From contig JADGRQ010000004.1 in assembly GCA_017880775.1 (NCBI GenBank), positions 1 to 64,000 of the forward strand: a DNA stretch of 64,000 nt. Reading direction: 5' to 3'. The notes below the pieces were generated by a model. The model was not told the DNA's origin and made no database searches. It saw nothing but the letters and a program-made list of their open reading frames with translations. The position numbers were made by a program, and so were the translations under genes. This stretch comes from Burkholderiales bacterium. Its GTDB lineage: Bacteria; Pseudomonadota; Gammaproteobacteria; Burkholderiales; SG8-39. Each line of letters begins with the position of its first letter. Positions within the stretch are counted from its first letter, which is position 1. Below, piece after piece: positions 3,394 through 57,020 of this stretch.

Positions 3394-4065
3394 ATGTGCG
3401 GCCGCTACGCCCTCCACGCGCACCCCGATGTGATCGCGCTCCAGTTCGCGCTGTCCGCCCCGCCTGAGTTCAAGCCCAGGTACAACATCGCGCCAAGCAC
3501 TGACATTCTGATCGTCCGCGAGGACAAGGAGCATGGCCGGCTGGGGGACCTCTACCGATGGGGGCTGATCCCCGGGTGGGCGAAGGACCCGAGCACCGGA
3601 AACAAGATGGCAAACGCCCGAGGCGAGACAGTGGCCGAGAAGCCGTCGTTCCGCGCAGCCTTCAAGCGCTGGCGCTGCCTGGTGCCGGCGAGCGGATTCT
3701 TCGAGTGGAGGGCAGTAGCCGGCAAGAAACAACCGTACTACATCCGCCCGAAGGGTGACGAGTTGTTCGGGCTCGCGGGCATCACTGAATTGTGGAACGG
3801 GCCGGACGGCCCGCTGCACACCGTGAGCCTGATCACCACCGAGCCGAATGAGCTGATGCGCGAGATCCACGACCGCATGCCGGTCATCGTGCCGCGCGAG
3901 GACTACGGTGCCTGGCTCGATCCCGGCAACCAGGACGTGGCGAAGCTGAAGGCGTTCATTCAGTCGAATCCGGCGAATCAGATGGAGGCGTACCCGGTGA
4001 GCAAGGCGGTGAGCTACGCGCGGAATGAGGGGGCTGAGTTGATAGCGCCCCTGGAAGAAGTATGA
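3394..4065 (+). CDS. SRAP / HMCES-type abasic-site protein (YedK-like)
   Basis: A 223-residue member of the SRAP family, which crosslinks covalently to abasic sites in single-stranded DNA and shields them. The defining residues are present: catalytic Cys2 exposed after Met removal (MCGRY), NARGET (Asn of the active site), the Glu in SGFFEW, and the His in HDRMPV. The length is normal for bacterial YedK. In other genomes it often associates with SOS or phage DNA. Here it sits in an accessory region beside a zinc-ribbon gene. Confidence 0.9.
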   Translation: MCGRYALHAHPDVIALQFALSAPPEFKPRYNIAPSTDILIVREDKEHGRLGDLYRWGLIPGWAKDPSTGNKMANARGETVAEKPSFRAAFKRWRCLVPASGFFEWRAVAGKKQPYYIRPKGDELFGLAGITELWNGPDGPLHTVSLITTEPNELMREIHDRMPVIVPREDYGAWLDPGNQDVAKLKAFIQSNPANQMEAYPVSKAVSYARNEGAELIAPLEEV

Positions 4066-4192
4066 AGAAGGCGGCAAACGACCCGAGCGCGGACCCGACC
4101 GTTACGCGCTTGCAGCGCTACACGACGCCGTTCGCGGTGATCGCCTACCACCACAGTGATGAGCGGCTTCTTGCTGTTGGTCCGCGGACCGG

Positions 4193-4561
4193 TCATCGCT
4201 TCCCCGCCGCAAAGGCGCCTTCGTTGAGGAAACGCCACCCTGCGGCGTCCGCCGCACGCCGGTCATCTGGCGAAGTGTAGGCTCGCAGTGAGTGGTCGTT
4301 ACCAACCATCACGTGCTCCTCCGCCGGAACGTATTGCTTGATCGCGACAAGAAAGTCCGCCTTATCCGTTCCGATCAAGCCGGGCCCAATAAAGGACAGC
4401 ACCCGGTGCCACTCGGGTACTTGCAACGTGACCGCAGCCCAGTTGCCGCACAACCCCAGCACGTGGCCTTCCGCTCGCAGCAGCGCGACCAGCGCCTCCC
4501 ACTGTACCGGCCCGTGAGAGAGGTACAGCGTCTCGTCCACATCAAAAGCGTACACCTTCAT
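4193..4561 (-). CDS. HAD-superfamily hydrolase-like protein
   Basis: A 122-residue protein starting MKVYAFDVDETLYL, where DVDET is HAD motif I (nucleophile and acid aspartates). A later MVGNDHSLRAYT fits motif IV. The protein is short and has no obvious cap domain, so it is a minimal HAD. Its ATG overlaps the stop of the upstream small membrane protein by ATGA, showing translational coupling. The substrate is unknown. Confidence 0.65.
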   Translation of the reverse strand: MKVYAFDVDETLYLSHGPVQWEALVALLRAEGHVLGLCGNWAAVTLQVPEWHRVLSFIGPGLIGTDKADFLVAIKQYVPAEEHVMVGNDHSLRAYTSPDDRRAADAAGWRFLNEGAFAAGKR

Positions 4562-4791
4562 ACGAATTTTCCGCCCTTCGCCCCACGCCCGAACGGGAAG
4601 TTCCACGCCCGCCGACGCCCCCACACCGCGCCCATCACACGGCCATCCGCGAGCAGCGCCGCCAGCGCGACCACCTTGCCAGAGAGTTCCTCCGCGCGAT
4701 TAACGCCCAGCCAGAGCGCCAGGAGCGCAACCGCCGCACCTGTACACACTCGAACAGCTGCGGAGAGCATCACGTATTCTGCACCACGCAC
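4558..4791 (-). CDS. Small membrane protein, unknown
   Basis: A 77-residue protein with one clear transmembrane segment (AVRVCTGAAVALLALWLGV) and a second weaker one, and a basic C-terminus. It is supported mainly by its ATGA overlap with the downstream HAD gene. It has no recognisable family. It could be a chance frame kept open by high GC, so confidence is limited. Confidence 0.35.
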   Translation of the reverse strand: MRGAEYVMLSAAVRVCTGAAVALLALWLGVNRAEELSGKVVALAALLADGRVMGAVWGRRRAWNFPFGRGAKGGKFV

Positions 4792-4939
4792 CGCATCGTG
4801 TCGGTTTACCGCTGCGGGGTGGATATGACGTGGCCGATAGAGTGGCGTAGGCTACTCGCCAGCGGTCGAGTCGAACTGACGGTATCCGTTATGCTTCCGC
4901 ACACCCGATACGATCCTGTTCGTTAGAGGGCCACTACGA

Positions 4940-5587
4940 GTGCAACCACCGAAGAGCGCCGTTTGTGTGATCTGTGGGTGTCGCCCAGCCACGACCCAAG
5001 ACCACGTTCCGCCGAAGGGCCTATTCAAGGGACTGGCAACACAACTGATTACTGTTCCGGCGTGCGCCACCTGCAACAATGGCTCCTCTTCCGAGGACGA
5101 AGATCTACGCTTCTACATCAGCATGCAGGTTGGAAAGCAAACCCCGGGGTCTGCAGCATTGTGGGATCAGGGTGCGCACAAAAGCCTCAAGCGCAAGACC
5201 CGTCTACGCACATCGGTTATCGCCACCGCTCGTGAAATTCGATTGACTGATGCTCGCGGAGAATGCGTGTCTCGCCTTGCCGTTGAGGTTCCAGCCCAGA
5301 CATATCAAACTGTATTCGAGCGTACTACGCGCGGCCTGTACTTTCACCATACAGGGAAAATACTGCCGCCAAGCGTGTCCGTCGAAGTCGCACCGCTCGA
5401 AGGTGTTCCCGACGTAAGCTCAGAGGAACTGCGATTACTTCAGCAGCACGCCATCGCCGGCGAGGCCTGTGTGTATAGGTTCGGCATCGCTGAAGAGCAG
5501 CCTGAAAGTAGTCTTTGGCTGTACGGCTTCTATGGAACGTTTTGGATCATGGCAACCACCGGCGATGATACGAACACAGCCCTCTAA
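4940..5587 (+). CDS. HNH endonuclease-like protein (probable integron cassette gene)
   Basis: A GTG-initiated 215-residue protein. The N-terminal 45 residues hold CVICG, DHVPPKGLF and CATCNNG, the zinc-knuckle and DH pattern of HNH-type nucleases. The remaining 160 residues are unassigned. The frame starts ten bases after a GTTAGAGG sequence and ends just before a well-formed attC site, the expected layout of an integron gene cassette. Candidate roles are DNA defence or anti-mobile-element activity, by analogy only. GC content is lower than in the flanking core genes. Confidence 0.6.
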   Translation: MQPPKSAVCVICGCRPATTQDHVPPKGLFKGLATQLITVPACATCNNGSSSEDEDLRFYISMQVGKQTPGSAALWDQGAHKSLKRKTRLRTSVIATAREIRLTDARGECVSRLAVEVPAQTYQTVFERTTRGLYFHHTGKILPPSVSVEVAPLEGVPDVSSEELRLLQQHAIAGEACVYRFGIAEEQPESSLWLYGFYGTFWIMATTGDDTNTAL

Positions 5588-5669
5588 GTACAGCTGGAAC
5601 GGACGGGCCACTAGCAGCGCGGCCCATCTGCGGTTCGCGTAGGCCCGCCGTTCACGACAACGTTAGGGC
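5588..5669 (+). other. attC recombination site
   Basis: Directly after the HNH stop codon lies a site ending in the attC right core GTTAGGG (5662-5668). Its arms GAACGGACGGGCC (5597-5609) and GGCCCGCCGTTC (5642-5653) are complementary with one unpaired A, the extrahelical base expected of folded attC bottom strands. The left core (CTCTAAG) is degenerate. The arms are the same as those of the attC at 48.4 kb in the integron array. Confidence 0.75.
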
Positions 5670-5678
5670 TACTTCCCG

Positions 5679-6104
5679 ATGCTTGACCGATCCGAGTGCT
5701 TTGAAAAGCCGGATGCATTGTTGACGGCCGCCTTGCTGGGCGACTTTGAGGCAGGGAAGATTCTCCTTGAGCAGGGAGCCGATCCGAATCAGCAGGATGA
5801 GCTGGGCCGCACAGCGCTCATGATCGTTATTCAGGAGGGGTGGGGCGAGTCATTCTGGGCTGAGCTGCTTGCTCAGTTCGGTGCCGATATCAACCTTCTC
5901 GACAACGATGGCGACTCCGCGCTTGACTTGGCAATCTTCTATCAGCAAGAGGAGGCAGCTCAGTTCCTTCGGGGTCGAAGGGCCATCGGTAAGGCCGGGC
6001 CATCCGCGAAGCAGGTTCGTGATGATGAGATCTACCGGGGATTTGCCGATGCAGATGCTGTGAAGCGACTTATATCAATGATCGATCGAAACAAAAAGCC
6101 CTGA
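5679..6104 (+). CDS. Ankyrin-repeat protein (probable cassette gene)
   Basis: A 141-residue protein with about two and a half ankyrin repeats. DALLTAALLGDFEAGKILLEQ then GADPNQQDELGRTALM is one, and FGADINLLDNDGDSALDLA is the next. It starts ten bases after the attC right core, as cassette genes do. Ankyrin repeats mediate protein-protein contact; no catalytic domain is present. No attC is visible at its 3' end, so the cassette boundary is lost there. Confidence 0.7.
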   Translation: MLDRSECFEKPDALLTAALLGDFEAGKILLEQGADPNQQDELGRTALMIVIQEGWGESFWAELLAQFGADINLLDNDGDSALDLAIFYQQEEAAQFLRGRRAIGKAGPSAKQVRDDEIYRGFADADAVKRLISMIDRNKKP

Positions 6105-6105
6105 C

Positions 6106-6352
6106 TTGCTTATGCCCCGCCCCCAGACACCGCTGCAGCCGCTCGGATTCTCGAAGGCAGCGATCAGATTTCGAGACGGCAAGTGCGTGGCAAGGTCGTT
6201 TTCGGTCCGCAAGCTCGGACGGCGAGTGGCGTTCGCCCGCGCTGTTGCGGCCCGAGCCGAGATGCTGGCGATGGTCGAGGACCGCCCGTACCTTTACGAC
6301 GACGTGGCGAAGCGATTTGCTACGCGGCGGGGGCCGAAGGCTCCCCGTCGGC
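6106..6352 (+). pseudogene. Possible AP2-like DNA-binding fragment
   Basis: A frame beginning just after the ankyrin stop encodes IRFRDGKCVARSFSVRKLGRR followed by a helix, reminiscent of AP2-type DNA-binding modules of phage integrases and homing nucleases. The frame then runs into the 3' end of the convergent cyclase gene, so it is at best a truncated remnant. No ribosome binding site is seen. This could be chance similarity. Confidence 0.2.
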
Positions 6353-7681
6353 TCAGGATCCCAGCCGTATACGATAGAGAACCGGCGCTACCGCGATGTT
6401 CTTCAGCTTGGCACCCTCGACCTTGCTGACGTCGAGCTGAAGCTTTTTCCTCACCATCTCGAACACTGGCTCGGAGATGCAGATTCCGCCGGGCTCGGCG
6501 TGCGGCTCGATGCGGGCAACCACGTTGACGCCGTCGCCGAACACGTCGTCGCCCGTGATCAGAACATCGCCGAGGTGGATGCCGATGCGTACCAGCACGC
6601 GGTCGTCCTCGTCCCTTCCGAGGTTCCAGTCGGCGAAGGCGCGTTGCGCCGTCAGCGCACAGTCCACCGCGTCGATCGCGCTGCGGAAAATCACCAAAAA
6701 TGCATCGCCGATGGTCTTGATCTCGCGCCCGCGGTGCGCCGCGATCGCGCCGCGCATGATGCGGTTGTGCTCCACGAGCTTGGCGTAGGCGCGTGCTTCG
6801 TCACGCTCCATCGCCTTGCTGTAGCCAAACATGTCGGTGAGCATGATCGCTACGAGCTCGCGCCCGGGCCCGCCGTCGGTCCCACTCGCTCCCGCCTGCA
6901 CGGGCATCGGCCGATCGCCGGCGGGACGCAGTTTACCCGCCCCGGCGTGCTTCGCTTCCTCCGCGAGGTGGCCGTTGTAGAGACCCACCAGCAGCACCGT
7001 GCCCCAGACGTGGTAAACCGCCGCCAGCCCGAAGCAGAGCGCGGGCAGCGTGAGCTCGTGGCCCCATACCGTGCCGCTGAGGAACAGATGCGCGCCCAGC
7101 ATCGGCGAGAACACCATCGGGAACGCGACGACGAGGAACAGCACCACCTCGTTCGACTTGCGCTCCCAGCGTTGCGCCAGCTCGTCGCCGAGCGCCGCAG
7201 GTTCCGATAGCAGCGCGCCCTGCCCAATCTCTCGTACCAGAAGCTCGCTCGTCTCATGTCGGCGCACTGCACCGAGCGCCCATAGCATTAGGACGAGCGC
7301 TCCGCTGTAGAACAGCGCGGAAGACACCCCGACCGCCCCGACGATACGGTCGTAGTTCGACACATCACCGACCAGGATCCACTGGTAGAACCACGAAACC
7401 ACCAGCGCCGCGGACAGCGCGGACAGGCCGGCCGCGCACCAGGGCGCCGTTGTCGACAACGCAAAGCCCCGCGCGCGGAAGGCCGCGAGCCGCACGGGAT
7501 CGGCGCCCTTTAGGTCGTCGCGCGCCTCCATTTCGCGCCAGCGCCGCTCGAGGTGCGCGCGGAGCGCGGCGGCGAAGCGCAGTACCGAATACACCCAGAA
7601 CGTGAGCAGCCCGAGCGCGAGGAAGCCGGTCGTCGAGAGTCGCTCGCCTGAGCCGAACGTTCCGCCGGTGAAAGCCGCCAT
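6353..7681 (-). CDS. Membrane-anchored class III adenylate/guanylate cyclase
   Basis: A 442-residue protein with an N-terminal membrane region (several hydrophobic segments over about residues 18-255) and a C-terminal class III cyclase domain (from about residue 280). The metal-binding Asp lies in IMLTDMFGYS and the second metal-site Asp in RIGIHLGDVLITGDDVFGDGVN. IKTIGDAFLV includes a substrate-region aspartate. It should make cAMP or cGMP from ATP or GTP at the membrane. Its start lies two bases after the frameshifted membrane gene upstream, so the two were probably one operon. Confidence 0.85.
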   Translation of the reverse strand: MAAFTGGTFGSGERLSTTGFLALGLLTFWVYSVLRFAAALRAHLERRWREMEARDDLKGADPVRLAAFRARGFALSTTAPWCAAGLSALSAALVVSWFYQWILVGDVSNYDRIVGAVGVSSALFYSGALVLMLWALGAVRRHETSELLVREIGQGALLSEPAALGDELAQRWERKSNEVVLFLVVAFPMVFSPMLGAHLFLSGTVWGHELTLPALCFGLAAVYHVWGTVLLVGLYNGHLAEEAKHAGAGKLRPAGDRPMPVQAGASGTDGGPGRELVAIMLTDMFGYSKAMERDEARAYAKLVEHNRIMRGAIAAHRGREIKTIGDAFLVIFRSAIDAVDCALTAQRAFADWNLGRDEDDRVLVRIGIHLGDVLITGDDVFGDGVNVVARIEPHAEPGGICISEPVFEMVRKKLQLDVSKVEGAKLKNIAVAPVLYRIRLGS

Positions 7682-7682
7682 C

Positions 7683-8320
7683 TCAGCCCCAACCGCCCCA
7701 CAAGAACGGCACGATGAGCGCGCTTACCAGCAGCATGATGGGCAGCGCGAACCATACGAGCTTCGCAAAGCCACCCGCGTGCACGGGTTCGGGCCAGTCT
7801 TCCTCCATAAAGCCAAGTGTGACGCCGCGCGCCGGCCGCCATTCGAGATTCCATAGCATGCCGGCAAGGATATAGAGGACGGAAGATGCCGCCATGTTGG
7901 ACCACCACGTGTTGGGATACCACCCCCGTCGCGGACCACGAGGTAGATGTCATAGCACCAGCTCGCCGAAAAGAGCAGCGCGCACAGCGCCACGTATGCC
8001 TGCCGCCGCCCCGCCTTCCTCCGCAGTGTGCGAAATAGCGTGCCGACCGCCCAGGGCGCTGTGGCGAAGGCAAGCACCGACATCATCAGCGCATCGAAGT
8101 AGTCCCAGGTCGGGTCGCCCGTGTACGGCGCGATAACAGTGATGCCGGCGGCGGCGACGACAAATGTCGCGATCTTCCAACGCTGCAACAGGTAGCGCCG
8201 GTACGCGGCACCGGTGAAGTTGAAGTCCGCGGGTCGCCGCACCACCAGCCCAAGCGCTACCAGGCAGGCGGCACTCCAGCCCGCTATGTAGACGTAGAAG
8301 AACGGCTCGATTTGATTCAT
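7683..8320 (-). pseudogene. Multi-pass membrane protein with a single frameshift
   Basis: Two minus-strand frames join into one plausible protein of about 211 residues. The first (from the ATG at 8320) covers MNQIEPFFYVYIAGW through SWCYDIYLVVRDG; the second continues WYPNTWWSNMAASSVLYIL to the end FLWGGWG. The switch falls in a run of five G bases near 7925; a sixth G would restore one frame. Hydrophobic segments lie throughout. It precedes the cyclase and may have been a sensor partner. A sequencing or assembly error in the homopolymer is as likely as a true mutation. Confidence 0.6.
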
Positions 8321-46975: not shown

Positions 46976-47902
46976 TTACCCGGTCCGCACCGGATCGATC
47001 CGGTCGAGCGGGCTCTTTACCGCCCGCCCGCCGCGATTCAGTACGTGCGTGTAGACCATGGTGGTCGAAACATCCGAATGCCCGAGCAACTCCTGCACCG
47101 TGCGGATGTCGTAGCCGGACTGCAGGAGGTGCGTTGCGAACGAATGCCGCAGCGTGTGACAACTCACCGGCTTGATGATGCTCGCGACGCGCGTCGCGCG
47201 CTTGATCGCGCGACTCATCGTATCTGGGTAAACGTGGTGGCGTCGAATGACCCCCGAATCCAGATCGACCGAGCGGTTTTTCGACGGAAACAGGAACTGC
47301 CAGCCCCACTCGTATCCCGCGCGCGGATACTTGCGCGACAAGGCGTGAGGCAGCCAGACATCTCCGTAACCCTCCGCGAGGTCCCGCCGATGAAGCGTGC
47401 GCACCTTGCCGAGGTGGGCCTGAAGCGATTGCACCACGCTTTCAGGCAGCATCGTTACACGGTCCTTCGCCCCTTTGCCGTCGCGCACAAGCACCCGGCG
47501 ATATGCGAAGTCCACGTCCTTGACGCGAAGCTCCAGGCATTCCTGCAGGCGCAGGCCCGCGCCGTAGAGCAGACTCGCCATCATCCAGGTCACGCCTTCG
47601 AGCTGCTCGAGCACTGCCTTGTACAGAAACAGCAGCGCGGCGAGCGCCTGGTTCTGCGTCGCGGCCGCGACGTTGCGATCGGTAGCGAGCCAGCTGAGGA
47701 ACGCCGTCACCTCAGCTGCACCCAATTCGGCCGGATGGCGTTTGTTGTTATGAAGGATGAAATAGCGGATCCAGAACCAGTAAGTTTTCTCCGTCCGCCG
47801 ACTGTAATGACGCGAGCGGATCGCCGCGCGCACGCGGTCGATCAAACGGGGTGCAGGAGAGGCGTTTGAGGAACCTTGCGAGGAATCAGCGGGTTGTTCC
47901 AT
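46976..47902 (-). CDS. intI: Integron integrase IntI with an internal deletion
   Basis: A 308-residue tyrosine recombinase. All catalytic residues are visible: R118 (GAGLRLQE), H249 and R252 (CHTLRHSF), H275 (LLGHSDVS) and Y284 (TMVYTHV). The IntI-specific extra helix region [19 protein letters not shown] ... GVIRRHH distinguishes it from XerC/D. Against remembered IntI sequences, about 33 residues are missing between LYKAVLEQ (residue 100) and LEGVTW (residue 101), where family members have an LPW ... RLPVVLT stretch. Activity may be reduced or lost. It faces away from the cassette array, as is usual. Confidence 0.92.
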
Positions 47903-48332: not shown

Positions 48333-48419
48333 GCCCAACTCTATGTCGAACGGACGGGCCTTCAGCGGCGTGCCGTGTGCGAGCAGCTCCCTGGCCCGCC
48401 GTTCACAACGACGTTAGAA
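48333..48419 (+). other. attC site of cassette 1
   Basis: Left core GCCCAAC (48333-48339) and right core GTTAGAA (48413-48419). Arms GAACGGACGGGCC and GGCCCGCCGTTC pair with one unpaired A. The same arms occur at the 5.6 kb site. Length 87 bases. Confidence 0.88.
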
Positions 48420-49268: not shown

Positions 49269-49325
49269 TTCTAACTTTAAATGCAACGGACCGCCTTCGG
49301 CGGCCGTTGATTATTGACGTTATGC
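49269..49325 (+). other. attC site of cassette 2
   Basis: Left core TTCTAAC and right core GTTATGC frame a compact 57-base site. The hairpin AACGGACCGCC-TTCG-GGCGGCCGTT has one unpaired A. This is the canonical short attC form. Confidence 0.88.
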
Positions 49326-50501: not shown

Positions 50502-52464
50502 TCGGGTAAGGGCCGGCTGCTAACCGGCCCTCCCCACACCACCCGGCATGCGGGTCCGCACCGGGCGGTTCACGTACAGGAAGCACGCGCCGTACTCAGG
50601 CGTATCCGTGAGCTTTCATCCAAAGATCACGGACACTGAACAAGCCCTGTTCCTTCAGCCATTGGTTGGTCATCCCGGCCTGGGTCGCCAGCGTCTTTGA
50701 CAGTCGCCAGTAGCTCTTGCTGCTGATGGCCGTCAGAATCGCATGGCGCTTTCCAATGCCGAGCGCAAGCAGATGCCGCACCTTCGTGCGCACCAGCCGC
50801 CACTGCTTCCAGTAGCACAGACGCACACGCCGGCGCAGCCACTCATCGATCTCGGGTACCGGACGGTAATACTCCGAGATGCCGAAGTACCCCATCCAGC
50901 CCCGTAGATACTGCGCGAGCTTGTTGAACCGGTAGCGCATCGAGACACCCCAGCTTCGTCCGGTGAATCTGCGAACGTTGTGCTTGAAGTCCTCGAACGC
51001 GCGCGCCGACCAGCGCAGCTTGCCCTTGCGGAACGTGAATCCCAGAAAGACGCACTGATCGATCGGCGCCACCCGGCTCTTCTGCTCATTGACCTGAAGC
51101 TTGAGCCTCTTGGCAAGATACCCCGTGAGGCTCGCCTTCACCCGCTCGCCGGCCCGTGGCGTCTTGACCAGAACCAGCACGTCGTCGGCGTAGCGCGCAA
51201 AGCGATGCCCCCGTCGTTCCAGTTCCCGGTCCAGATCGTCCAGCAGGATGTTGGCCAGCAGCGGCGAGAGCGGTCCGCCTTGCGGCGTGCCGATCTCGCT
51301 GGGCTCGAAGGTTTCCCCGACCACGACGCCCGCTCTCAGGTACCGACCGAGCAGCGCGAGCAACCGCGTGTCACCTACCTTCCTGGCCACGCGGGCCATC
51401 AGGATGTCGTGCTGGACGTTGTCGAAGAACTTCGCCAAATCCAGATCGACGGCAATGCGGTAGCCGGCCTTGATACTGGCCTGCACCTGTCGGAGCGCTC
51501 CGTGAGCGCCGCGTCGGGGACGGAAACCGAAACTCGACTCGGAGAATCCCGCATCGAAGATCGGCCCCATCACTTGCGCGATGGCCTGCTGGATCAACCG
51601 GTCAACGACCGTCGGTATCCCCAGCAGTCGCTCGCCCCCGTCCGGTTTCGGGATACTCACCCGTCGCACCGGTTGTGGGCAATACGTGCCATCGAGCAAG
51701 GCTTGTCGGATCGCCGGCCAGTGGCCGCGCGCGTAGGCCGGGAAGTCCTCGATGCGCATCCCGTCAATGCCGGGCGCACCTCGATTGCTCCTCACCTGCC
51801 GCCACGCGCGCCGCAGATTGTCCGCGGCAACGATCCCTTCCATGAGTACATCGTGCAAGGCTGGCTGCATGACCCTACGCCGATCCTCGGCTCCCCCGGT
51901 CGGGTTCGTCACCAAAGTCGAGTCGGTCACCGCTCCTCCTTGTCTGTTCGTGTTCGGCCCTTTGCCGTGACCCCTTCTTGCGCGGGGGCGCCGGCTCATA
52001 CGGCCTCTGCTGACTTCTGTCCGGTCACGCCACGCATTGCTGCGCAGCGCGCTGCGCCGCCTTGCTCCGTTCGCTGCCTCGTTCGCTCGCGTGGATCGGC
52101 AGCATCTCCACACGCCTGGGCCTTGTTCAACCAGCGGACCCGGCTGGTTCATTACGGTGCAAGGAAAGCGACGCCGCCGCGCCGGTCAGATCTCCCCGAA
52201 TAAGAACATGCGCCTTCGGTGCACAACCGCCGCATTTACCCTGCCCCTGGACACCTCGGGCTTCGTCATCTGGTGCTGACTCGCCCCGGGACTGAGCCTT
52301 CTATGCAATTTCTGTTCGTTGGCTCGCACCTTTGCCTTCCAGCTTCCTTCAGACAAATCCTCGCGGACTTGCCCTTGCCGTCGGCTAGTGGTTATCCTGA
52401 TTCCATGGCGTCCTCCCACAGGGGACTTCCACCCCATCAGATCATGCCCATGTCGGGCGTACAC
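50502..52464 (-). mobile_element. Group IIC-attC intron inserted in an attC site
   Basis: A 1963-base intron on the strand opposite to the cassette genes. The 5' end reads GTGTACGCCCG (from 52464), the RNA domain I region follows with TGGGGTGGAAGTCCCC and GCGAGGATTTGTCTGAAGG, the reverse transcriptase gene comes next, and domain V is the hairpin GAACCGCCCGGTGCGG ... CCGCATGCCGGGTGG near 50575-50530. Joining 50501 to 52465 gives GGCATAACCGGCAGCG, which restores an attC left core GCATAAC. This fixes both ends. The class is known to target attC bottom strands. Confidence 0.85.
50596..51930 (-). CDS. ltrA: Group II intron reverse transcriptase/maturase
   Basis: A 444-residue intron-encoded protein. 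RT blocks: FRPRRGAHGALRQVQ, DLAKFFDNVQHDIL, GTPQGGPLSPLLANILLDD, and RYADDVLVLV with the catalytic YADD. The maturase domain follows (LAQYLRGWMGYFG). No C-terminal HNH endonuclease is present, as expected for class C. The GTG at 51930 has AAGGAGGA ahead of it and starts VTDSTLVTNP; a longer frame to 52152 lacks a start signal. It appears intact, so the intron may still move. Confidence 0.93.
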   Translation of the reverse strand: MTDSTLVTNPTGGAEDRRRVMQPALHDVLMEGIVAADNLRRAWRQVRSNRGAPGIDGMRIEDFPAYARGHWPAIRQALLDGTYCPQPVRRVSIPKPDGGERLLGIPTVVDRLIQQAIAQVMGPIFDAGFSESSFGFRPRRGAHGALRQVQASIKAGYRIAVDLDLAKFFDNVQHDILMARVARKVGDTRLLALLGRYLRAGVVVGETFEPSEIGTPQGGPLSPLLANILLDDLDRELERRGHRFARYADDVLVLVKTPRAGERVKASLTGYLAKRLKLQVNEQKSRVAPIDQCVFLGFTFRKGKLRWSARAFEDFKHNVRRFTGRSWGVSMRYRFNKLAQYLRGWMGYFGISEYYRPVPEIDEWLRRRVRLCYWKQWRLVRTKVRHLLALGIGKRHAILTAISSKSYWRLSKTLATQAGMTNQWLKEQGLFSVRDLWMKAHGYA

Positions 52465-52544
52465 CCGGCAGCGCAGCGGACGCGCGCGAGCGGGGGTAGT
52501 TTGCAACGATCGGCGCGCGCGCGCCGCTGGCTTCCACGTTGGAC
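52465..52544 (+). other. attC site of cassette 3, right part (split by the intron)
   Basis: This is the larger part of an attC whose left core lies at 50495-50501, across the intron. The right core is GTTGGAC (52538-52544). CAGCGCAGCGGACGCGCGCG pairs in part with CGCGCGCGCCGCTGG. The start of this part, GGCAGCGCAGCGGACG, resembles the attC at 53303. Confidence 0.75.
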
Positions 52545-53114: not shown

Positions 53115-53308
53115 GAATTCGGTACTTCAAAGACACCGACACACTGCTCATCGAGTTCAAAGAAGCTCCCGTCGCCGAAACCCGCGACCTCGATGAAAAC
53201 ACGGTGCTGGACATGGATGCTCAAGGCAATGTCTGCGCCATCACCGTTGAGCACGCCTCCCAGCGTGCTGGCATCCCCGCGTTCTCGTACGAGCAGGTTG
53301 CGGCTTAA
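53111..53308 (+). CDS. Cassette 4, third gene: DUF2283 protein
   Basis: A 65-residue DUF2283 protein (MRIRYFKDTDTLLIEFKEAP, ETRDLDENTVLDMDAQGNVCAITVEHAS). Its ATG overlaps the previous stop (ATGA). Its stop codon TAA lies inside the attC left core GCTTAAC. DUF2283 proteins pair with DUF4258 proteins in many genomes. Confidence 0.85.
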   Translation: MRIRYFKDTDTLLIEFKEAPVAETRDLDENTVLDMDAQGNVCAITVEHASQRAGIPAFSYEQVAA

Positions 53309-53392
53309 CAGCGCAGCCCACCCGGACGGGCGCGCGAGCCTCGTGCCTCGCAACGGTCACCGGGCGCGCGCCGGTGGCTGCAAACGTTATGC
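53303..53392 (+). other. attC site of cassette 4
   Basis: Left core GCTTAAC (53303-53309), right core GTTATGC (53386-53392). GCAGCCCACCCGG pairs with CCGGTGGCTGC around a large central stem with GGGCGCGCG and CGGGCGCGCGCCGG. Length 90 bases. Confidence 0.85.
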
Positions 53393-53834: not shown

Positions 53835-53898
53835 GCATAACAATTCGCTGCAGGCGCGACGGCCCTGGCGGGCCGCGGCCTGAGCTCAAACGTTGAGG
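53835..53898 (+). other. attC site of cassette 5
   Basis: Left core GCATAAC (53835-53841), right core GTTGAGG (53892-53898). GGCCCTGGCGGGCC forms the tip, and CTGCAGGCGC with GCGGCCTGAG the lower stem. Length 64 bases. Confidence 0.82.
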
Positions 53899-54183
53899 CG
53901 GTAGAAAAAGTCCCGCCGCGATCATCGACACTCTACGATGCGATATGAGCGTTGCGTTGATTGAATTGGGCATCGATGGTCAACCGAGCCGTAATCTTCT
54001 CGTAGATCGCGTCCTCCTGCCCGACAACGACAATGTTCGAAGCGATCAAAGGAATTGGACGTGTTTTCGCAAGTGCTCGAATTGCCCGGTTTGGGTACTT
54101 TTTCTACAGCCTCGTTGGGCCTCTCACACCCCCGAGCACCCGACTCGTATGCGCGATTGCATAGAAGTATCCGTTGGGATACG
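53899..54183 (+). other. Leader of cassette 6, possible small ORF
   Basis: A 43-codon frame at 54033-54164 (MFEAIKGIGRVFASARIARFG then a hydrophobic YFFYSLVGPL) could encode a small membrane peptide. It has no clear ribosome binding site. The longer frames across this stretch look random. A second, fused cassette whose attC was lost would explain the length. Confidence 0.25.
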
Positions 54184-54806: not shown

Positions 54807-54864
54807 GCCCAACTTTAGCTGCAGCGGACGCGCTAAAGCGCGCCACTGACCATGACGGTGGGCG
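54807..54864 (+). other. Degenerate attC of cassette 6
   Basis: Left core GCCCAAC (54807-54813) and hairpin CGGACGCGC-TAAA-GCGCGCC are intact. The right core reads GGTGGGC where GTTGGGC is expected, so the crossover GTT is changed. This cassette end should recombine poorly. Confidence 0.65.
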
Positions 54865-55973: not shown

Positions 55974-57020
55974 ATGAAAACGATATTCCGTATGTTCTCA
56001 GCAGTGCTGTTGCTTTTTCTGAGCATTGACGCACATGCCGCGAATGGCCGGCAACTCGTGATGGAAGAATTCATGGTACCGGCGGTGGACCCGGGCATCA
56101 GCCTCTACGTGCGCAACAAGCATCCGCAAGGCGTGAAGAAGTTCACGGGCGAGACGATCCTGCTCTTCGTGCACGGTGCGACCTACCCCTCGGAGACCGC
56201 GTTCGACCTGAAGCTGAACGGCCTGTCCTGGATGGACTACATAGCGCAGCACGGCTACGACGTGTACCTGGTGGACATTCGCGGCTACGGCAAGTCCACG
56301 CGCCCGCCCGAGATGGACAAGCCGGCCGCGGACAACGCGCCGATCGTGCGCGCCGAGACCGCAGTCCAGGACGTCGGCGCGGCGGTGGACTTCATCCTCA
56401 AGCGCCGCGGCGTTTCGAAGATCAACCTGCTGGGCTGGTCGTGGGGCACCACCATCATGGGCTGGTACACCGCGCAGAACAACGACAAGGTGAACCGGCT
56501 GGTGCTCTACGCGCCACAATGGATCCGCAACAGCGCGGCGCTCACGGACTCGGGCGGCAAGCTCGGTGCCTACCGTACCGTCTCGCGCGACGCCGCGAAG
56601 GGCCGCTGGCTCACGGGCGTGGCCGAGGACAAGAAAGCCGACCTGATCCCGCCGGGCTGGTTCGAGGCATGGGCGGACGCCACCTTCGCAACCGACCCGG
56701 TGGGCTCGAAGCAAACGCCCCCGGTGCTGCGCGCGCCCAACGGAGTGGTGCAGGACGGGCGCGAGTTCTGGGGTGCGGGCAAGGCGCTGTACGACCCAGT
56801 CGGGATTCGGGTCCCCACCCTCCTCGCGCACGCCGAGTGGGATGCCGACTTGCCGAGCTACATGCTGCACGCCTATTTCGCCAAGCTGACCAATGCGCCC
56901 TACAAGCGCTACGTGGAGATAGGCGAAGGCACGCACACGGTCATCATGGAGAAGAACCGCATGCAGCTGTTCCAGGCGGTTCAGCAGTTTCTCGATGAAA
57001 GGCTCAACGCCAACCAGTAA
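55974..57020 (+). CDS. Exported alpha/beta hydrolase
   Basis: A 348-residue protein with signal peptide (FRMFSAVLLLFLSIDAHAAN). The nucleophile Ser is in INLLGWSWGTTIMGWY, and the oxyanion region is ILLFVHGATYPS; the C-terminal His is in GEGTHTVIMEKNR. A predicted periplasmic esterase or peptidase-like hydrolase. GGAGGAAAA precedes the ATG. No attC follows it, so it is probably not a cassette. Confidence 0.82.
   Translation: MKTIFRMFSAVLLLFLSIDAHAANGRQLVMEEFMVPAVDPGISLYVRNKHPQGVKKFTGETILLFVHGATYPSETAFDLKLNGLSWMDYIAQHGYDVYLVDIRGYGKSTRPPEMDKPAADNAPIVRAETAVQDVGAAVDFILKRRGVSKINLLGWSWGTTIMGWYTAQNNDKVNRLVLYAPQWIRNSAALTDSGGKLGAYRTVSRDAAKGRWLTGVAEDKKADLIPPGWFEAWADATFATDPVGSKQTPPVLRAPNGVVQDGREFWGAGKALYDPVGIRVPTLLAHAEWDADLPSYMLHAYFAKLTNAPYKRYVEIGEGTHTVIMEKNRMQLFQAVQQFLDERLNANQ

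Follow-up and report, generated by a model that had tools for sequence, protein, structure and literature searches.

A gene cassette with an intact attC site beside the relic of an IS91-type element end in a Burkholderiales genome

At 5.6 kb of the window, by which we mean the whole stretch of 64,000 nucleotides analysed (forward strand of contig JADGRQ010000004.1 of a Burkholderiales bacterium), a relic of the end of an IS91-family element (4860–4923), an HNH gene cassette (4923–5662) and an ankyrin cassette (5663–6105) adjoin one another on the plus strand. The HNH cassette begins with TTAGAGGGC, ends on the G of an attC core and holds an HNH-like open reading frame of 215 amino acids with a GTG start (4940–5587, plus strand); its protein matched no Pfam family above threshold and gave a weak match to HNH_5 (E 0.21) below the cut-off. 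The 5′ end of the cassette, TTAGAGGGC, is the exact reverse complement (9/9) of GCCCTCTAA at 5579–5587, on the R'' side of the attC site that we call site A (5579–5668, plus strand; assigned from its arms, fold, R'' match and covariance-model score). The initial annotation, which had placed the HNH gene in a cassette and the site at 5588–5669, was right on the cassette, closed by site A, and on the nature of the site, whose true span is slightly longer and includes the R'' box.

Site A is a genuine attC site: its R' core, GTTAGGG, follows GTTRRRY up to the seventh base, which departs from it; its R'' box is complementary to the 5′ end of its own cassette; and its L''/L' stem carries an extrahelical base and is recognized by a covariance model. 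This model, R2, was trained on 26 attC sites from other genomes and plasmids and on none from the present genome, and it gives a slight advantage to site A and to the site at 48.4 kb, site B, as one training site (from genome G436) has the same arms. R2 found site A at 5582–5668 with 31.9 bits (E 2.8e-5) in the window and with 32.0 bits (E 0.0019) on the whole genome, so that the failure under an attC covariance model which had been held out as evidence against the first reading did not occur. On the bottom strand, site A folds better than 198 of 200 shuffled sequences and site B better than 190 of 200. The R'' box of site A ends in AAG instead of AAC, at the cost of one base pair beside the core, and this speaks for a chance inverted repeat; such a repeat is nevertheless extremely improbable in view of the complementarity of R'' to the 5′ end of the HNH cassette at all nine positions and of a score of 31.9 bits, against 18.1 for the top match in the window beyond site A and the array at 48 kb. 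For a rough idea of the background, a 9/9 partner with C after it lies at most 4 kb from 2 of the window's 43 GTTA positions, a sample that retains true cassettes and a definition that leaves out site A, whose partner is followed by G.

The ankyrin-repeat open reading frame (5679–6104, plus strand; 141 amino acids; Ank_2, E 3.4e-14) starts 17 bases past the core of site A. Genes in cassettes typically start shortly after the core, as this one does. The attC site of this cassette is truncated: an R''-like box, GCCCTGAC, is left at 6098–6105; the nine bases AAGCCCTGA at the cassette end fit the expected R'' (the reverse complement of the 5′ end TTAGGGCTA) at seven of nine positions; and R2 found no match above 4.8 bits between 5727 and 6400. 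The ankyrin gene, earlier named as the partner of the HNH gene, is very probably the next cassette. The locus retains neither intI nor attI.

Among the 97 other genomes of the family the HNH protein had no close match, the single one being at 32% (E 8e-4), and the ankyrin protein had none in family genomes at E 1e-12; PADLOC returned weak partial matches for both. An HNH relative (28% identity) in a Brocadiaceae assembly (L045) starts 43 bases past an attC-like site (21.9 bits, E 0.022) and has, by eye, a partial R''-like box downstream, so that members of this protein family are carried by cassettes elsewhere; R2 found no attC match beside another relative, from a Nitrospirae assembly (L044). 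Our searches found no relative with the same cassettes or with an empty site: on the right flank, the sole long match (G024:C322, 77%, window 6363–8311) stops at 6363, short of the cassettes.

The window also holds an integron at 48 kb, whose integrase gene (46976–47902, minus strand; TIGR02249 411.6 bits, cut-off 265) is intact and, about 41 kb from the HNH and ankyrin cassettes, is the only intact one found; the cassettes do lie far from an integrase, as first noted. That none is nearby holds within the contig, but the contig begins 4.9 kb upstream of the HNH cassette. The array on the plus strand comprises site B (48333–48419; 36.9 bits, E 2e-6), an attC of a short type (49269–49325; 30.4 bits) and further attC sites at 52459–52544 (32.1 bits), 53303–53392 (41.6 bits), 53835–53899 and 54807–54863 (32.1 bits); together with site A, these make up the seven window sites that exceed 30 bits. 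The site at 53835–53899 differs at one of 57 positions from the attC after blaOXA in a class 1 integron on a Pseudomonas aeruginosa plasmid (L128). Inside the array, within 50596–52544, a group II intron lies opposite to it and adjoins the attC at 52459–52544; its reverse transcriptase/maturase gene is at 50596–52152 on the minus strand (TIGR04416 393.8 bits; RF02001 and RF01998), and its place beside an attC resembles that of group IIC-attC introns, a likeness of position irrespective of class. By eye, an alpha/beta hydrolase gene at the array end (55974–57020) is similar to the one immediately downstream of the IS91-type end in G053:C68 (L064), and GTTTAG precedes both.

Sites A and B have identical arms, exactly as the initial annotation had it: GAACGGACGGGCC at 5597–5609 and 48348–48360, and GGCCCGCCGTTC at 5642–5653 and 48393–48404, neither with a further exact copy in the window. 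The sites end in CACGACAACGTTAGGG (A) and CACAACGACGTTAGAA (B). Genome-wide the 5′ arm occurs three times, the third in a site on contig C40 with an altered 3′ arm and core. From this likeness it had been concluded that the HNH/ankyrin pair probably came from the 48 kb integron, on the premise that the attC sites of one integron are alike. The premise fails here, the 48 kb array having several attC types, and the conclusion is not supported: site A is no closer to site B than to sites of other genomes. With 12–42 bases allowed between the arms, three of the order's 399 genomes have the exact pair, namely this one (twice), G048 (same family, other genus) and G436 (other family), and it occurs in no stretch of the viral contigs; the same arms being common in unrelated genomes, which had been named as a ground for giving up the first reading, is therefore borne out in part, by two genomes besides this one.

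Outside the arms, the flanks of sites A and B match at 17 of 29 positions, as do those of A and the G048 site and of B and the G048 site, against 20 for A and G436, 19 for B and G436, and 18 for G436 and G048, so that A and B are tied for least alike among the four arm-sharing sites. When the 30-base ends were compared with 47 other sites, site A was closer to the G436 site, the G048 site, a site on contig C74 of its own genome and a second G048 site than to site B; because the G436 site and one G048 site were found through their arms, this comparison is fair only among the four. The attC of the HNH cassette is thus not nearer to the 48 kb array than to the sites of other genomes, and on these alignments the resemblance of the arms is weak evidence for an origin from that integron. 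Two exact-arm sites in one genome nevertheless exceed the sampled background, and a shared origin of A and B may still hold.

The left edge of the locus is more informative. In a blastn search of 98 genomes of the family, which also matched flanking genes, the segment ending at the left junction of the HNH cassette (G at 4922) matched G124:C131 (86% over 65 bp, E 6.7e-14), G011:C302 (89% over 53 bp, E 1.9e-11), G124:C157 (85%), G129:C34 (78%) and G053:C68 (78%), and the matches to these four other genomes stop where the HNH cassette begins, at its G^TT junction. In G124:C131 and G011:C302 the matching segment lies about 0.2–0.3 kb past the transposase gene of an IS91-family element, which a gene for an IntI-related tyrosine recombinase precedes (TIGR02249 183.4 bits, below the cut-off of 265); the transposase of locus L060 scores 433.5 bits with NF033538. 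The segment at 4860–4923 is thus homologous to the 3′ ends of elements with an IS91 transposase, and we assign it as a relic of such an end. The relic is short and degenerate, its hairpin can no longer be folded, and it gave no attC model match above 5.8 bits. We also considered the 65-bp left edge as an attI and dropped this candidate, since the segment lies downstream of the IS91 transposase in relatives.

Copies of this end were collected with a covariance model, R1, trained on six copies including that of the window; an 18-base pattern with three mismatches allowed matched 90 of 98 genomes, which is noise, and was not used. R1 gave 18 rows, from which we left out two of G105:C4, a minus-strand echo of G124:C131, a plus-strand echo of G011:C302 and a weak match of 89 nt in G135:C13, so that 13 full-length ends in the 98 family genomes were counted, three of them in this genome. 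The core that follows is GTT after 11 ends, GAT after one and GTC after one. Behind six of the 13 (L060, L063, L119, L121, L124 and the window) the R'' of the next cassette pairs with its 5′ end at nine of nine positions, for which the 2 of 43 GTTA positions given above serve as control; L120 and L122 have downstream attC sites by the model and L061 a weak one (18.6 bits), without a matching partner at the first such site; the sequence of L062 stops 0.13 kb on; and L064, L117 and L118 have no downstream attC by the model or matching partner. L117 and L118 (G000:C3:37209 and G000:C54:150328) are the two further end relics of this genome, followed by GTTAGCGG and GTCAGCCG, and no intact cassette was found behind them. 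A blastn search of plasmids did not find the end.

A related transposase is present in 40 of 399 genomes of the order. The left ends of the elements read TTGAACTAAACCGC or near variants and have a G before them in 14 of 15 mapped copies, and the right junctions are GTT in 19 of 21, in lists compiled by hand of which the second includes the G135 copy (L106) dropped from the other counts. A whole or partial intI gene lies just upstream and in the opposite direction at 4 of 14 mapped left ends (L119, L062, L157 and L162); the other ten show none within the available stretch, and the complete element of L060 is not beside one, so that the element by itself does not prove an integron platform. Six loci found through the transposase have a placed right end, eight additional ones with right ends that could not be placed standing outside this count: L159 has an 8/8 partner and an attC of 26.0 bits, L161 a 7/8 partner and an attC of 25.6 bits, L160 an attC of 29.3 bits, L157 a 7/8 partner, and L156 and L169 neither.

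The clearest arrangement is that of the Escherichia coli plasmid pM216_AC2 (L186, NZ_AP018145.1), with the order intI1, aac(6')-IIa, the recombinase and IS91 transposase genes, and aadA4: here the element (3876–6457) lies exactly between the attC of aac(6')-IIa and the aadA4 cassette, with G^TT on both sides. Its left junction reads ...CAGGTG^TTGAACTAA after an attC of 42.5 bits by the attC model, and its right junction ...GCTGATCG^TTAGGC ahead of aadA4; its recombinase and the L060 one share 49.5% identity. An element of this type is thus present in a class 1 resistance integron.

We had also taken the IS91-type end for an attC site and withdrew this assignment. The covariance model rejects it, with 3.3 bits for the intact L060 copy, and complementary boxes also occur in ISAzo26 without a nearby attC. 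In a looser box-and-stem search several end copies exceeded the null maximum of 18.6, the window copy staying below it at 16.1; by eye, the box spacing of the end is unlike that of a canonical attC. Loci L012 and L013 gave no attC model match at E 1.

The element may be a cassette moved by IntI, may be targeted to integron junctions by its own recombinase, or may be aimed there by its transposase. We propose tentatively, at somewhat less than even confidence, that a recombinase-bearing lineage of IS91 elements behaves like a gene cassette: it would start with TTGAACTAA, end in a complementary box and hairpin and lie between two G^TT junctions; it would occupy attI or attC junctions in several bacterial families, moved either by the host integrase or with a recombinase of its own; and stranded arrays may have it at their head or border, the 5.6 kb locus being a fossil of such an array. 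If so, integrons host a transposable element built for their own recombination points, which would bear on how cassette arrays get started, fall apart and become dispersed as CALINs. Our literature search, which drew on sources available in part, found no publication devoted to an IS91-type element between two G^TT junctions; we do not claim that it is unpublished.

For the 5.6 kb locus itself, what moved the element matters little, as the array is old and broken. The sequences show directly where the cassettes begin and end, that site A is an attC and that the left edge is homologous to the element ends. We consider it rather probable that the locus is the decayed remainder of a separate cassette array without integrase (CALIN), composed of the IS91-type end, the HNH cassette with site A and the ankyrin cassette with an attC reduced to its R''. 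Against this reading stand the lack, in our searches, of a relative with these cassettes or with an empty site, the loss of intI and attI from the locus, and the short and degenerate state of the end relic. IntegronFinder 2 by default calls a CALIN when two or more attC sites have no integrase beside them, and the locus, with one intact attC, one truncated R'' box and an IS91-type end that the attC model rejects, is strictly a single-attC locus. An integron integrase would have laid down the array by attC × attI (or attC × attC) recombination, and the platform, with almost the whole IS91-type element, would have been lost later by deletion. The element is often the first to follow intI and attI in relatives, so that the locus is more probably what is left of a separate integron than a pair ejected from the 48 kb one. 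Despite its mutated R'' box, site A may remain a candidate substrate for the intact integrase in trans.

The closest competitor of a separate array is an excision of the HNH cassette (and the ankyrin cassette) by the intact 47 kb integrase from its own array, followed by insertion at a non-classical (attG) site 43 kb away on the same contig. The genome has the intact intI that this calls for, the exact arms are common to A and B, with two such sites here and one each in 2 of 398 other genomes, and PMC12901181 and PMC12444791 cite a description of cassette insertion at attG (Loot et al. 2024). We nonetheless regard it as unlikely, given that site A is no nearer to B than it is to exact-arm sites of another genus and another family and that the left junction is an IS91-type end known from integron junctions and not plain chromosomal DNA.

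Another candidate is a rolling-circle origin, in which the IS91-family element brought the cassettes and was then mostly lost. The element end does abut the cassette, and failed termination lets IS91 and ISCR elements move adjacent DNA (PMC7923331); yet the cassettes lie on the oriIS (3′) side and not the terIS side, and the junction is exactly G^TT, as from integron recombination, which leaves this origin improbable. One-ended events of the IS91 family carry DNA beyond the terIS side. We give a similarly low probability to an assembly artefact, by which the locus would be part of a longer integron split at the contig end with its integrase unassembled here. In its favour, the HNH cassette is 4.9 kb from the contig start, where repeat-like DNA lies (a transposase gene and a fragment of a group II intron), and CALIN counts are inflated in draft genomes (PMC9024848), but ordinary genes, encoding an SRAP protein and a protein with a weak HAD-like match, stand between the contig end and the cassettes, an unexpected place for intI.

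CALINs are already known, and the IS91-type element is the more interesting part of the locus. CALINs and single attC sites are scattered through the chromosomes of Shewanella (PMC9229058) and Xanthomonas (PMC12444791); the 5.6 kb locus resembles these CALINs and SALINs in that cassettes with attC lie far from any intI although the genome has a complete integron as well, and differs in its IS91-family relic as left border and in its one intact attC. Insertion at attG (Loot et al. 2024) would likewise account for a cassette outside arrays, but the left flank here is not plain chromosomal DNA. By description, ISShvi3 of a Shewanella integron is similar, an IS91-like element beside an attC that is said to yield a new gene cassette structure (PMC9229058); the portion of the account available gives no junction sequences. 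ISCR28 also has an IS91-like transposase and an attC on its 3′ side, at or just past the end, but it is an ISCR element of a resistance module, and the available portion of its description mentions no recombinase gene (PMC12772301). ISAzo26, on an Aromatoleum plasmid (L187), shares the recombinase and IS91 transposase genes and has similar subterminal boxes (TTGGACTAA and AGTCCAAC), but no attC was found in its 8.9 kb stretch at E 1. Identical attC arms may tempt one to infer a common origin, but they do not suffice to assign a stray cassette to one particular integron, and the borders of a stray array are more informative.

Integron decay is common in this genome. R2 returned 20 matches on the whole genome up to E 1, 17 of them above 28 bits; stray attC sites lie on C54 (at 120 kb), C2, C25, C27 and C74 (at 185 kb); and C74 also carries at about 53.5–56.1 kb (L066) a dead second integron, in which intI is a pseudogene, interrupted by internal deletions and a stop, and three attC sites follow it. 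Towards the contig edge, the window has a fragment of a group II intron at 496–645 and an IS481/IS3-like transposase gene at 968–2047, which scores below the cut-offs of the models. The SRAP gene (3394–4065) has a second copy, 80% identical, at 123140–123790 of contig C74, and the left 6 kb of the window may therefore be an acquired region.
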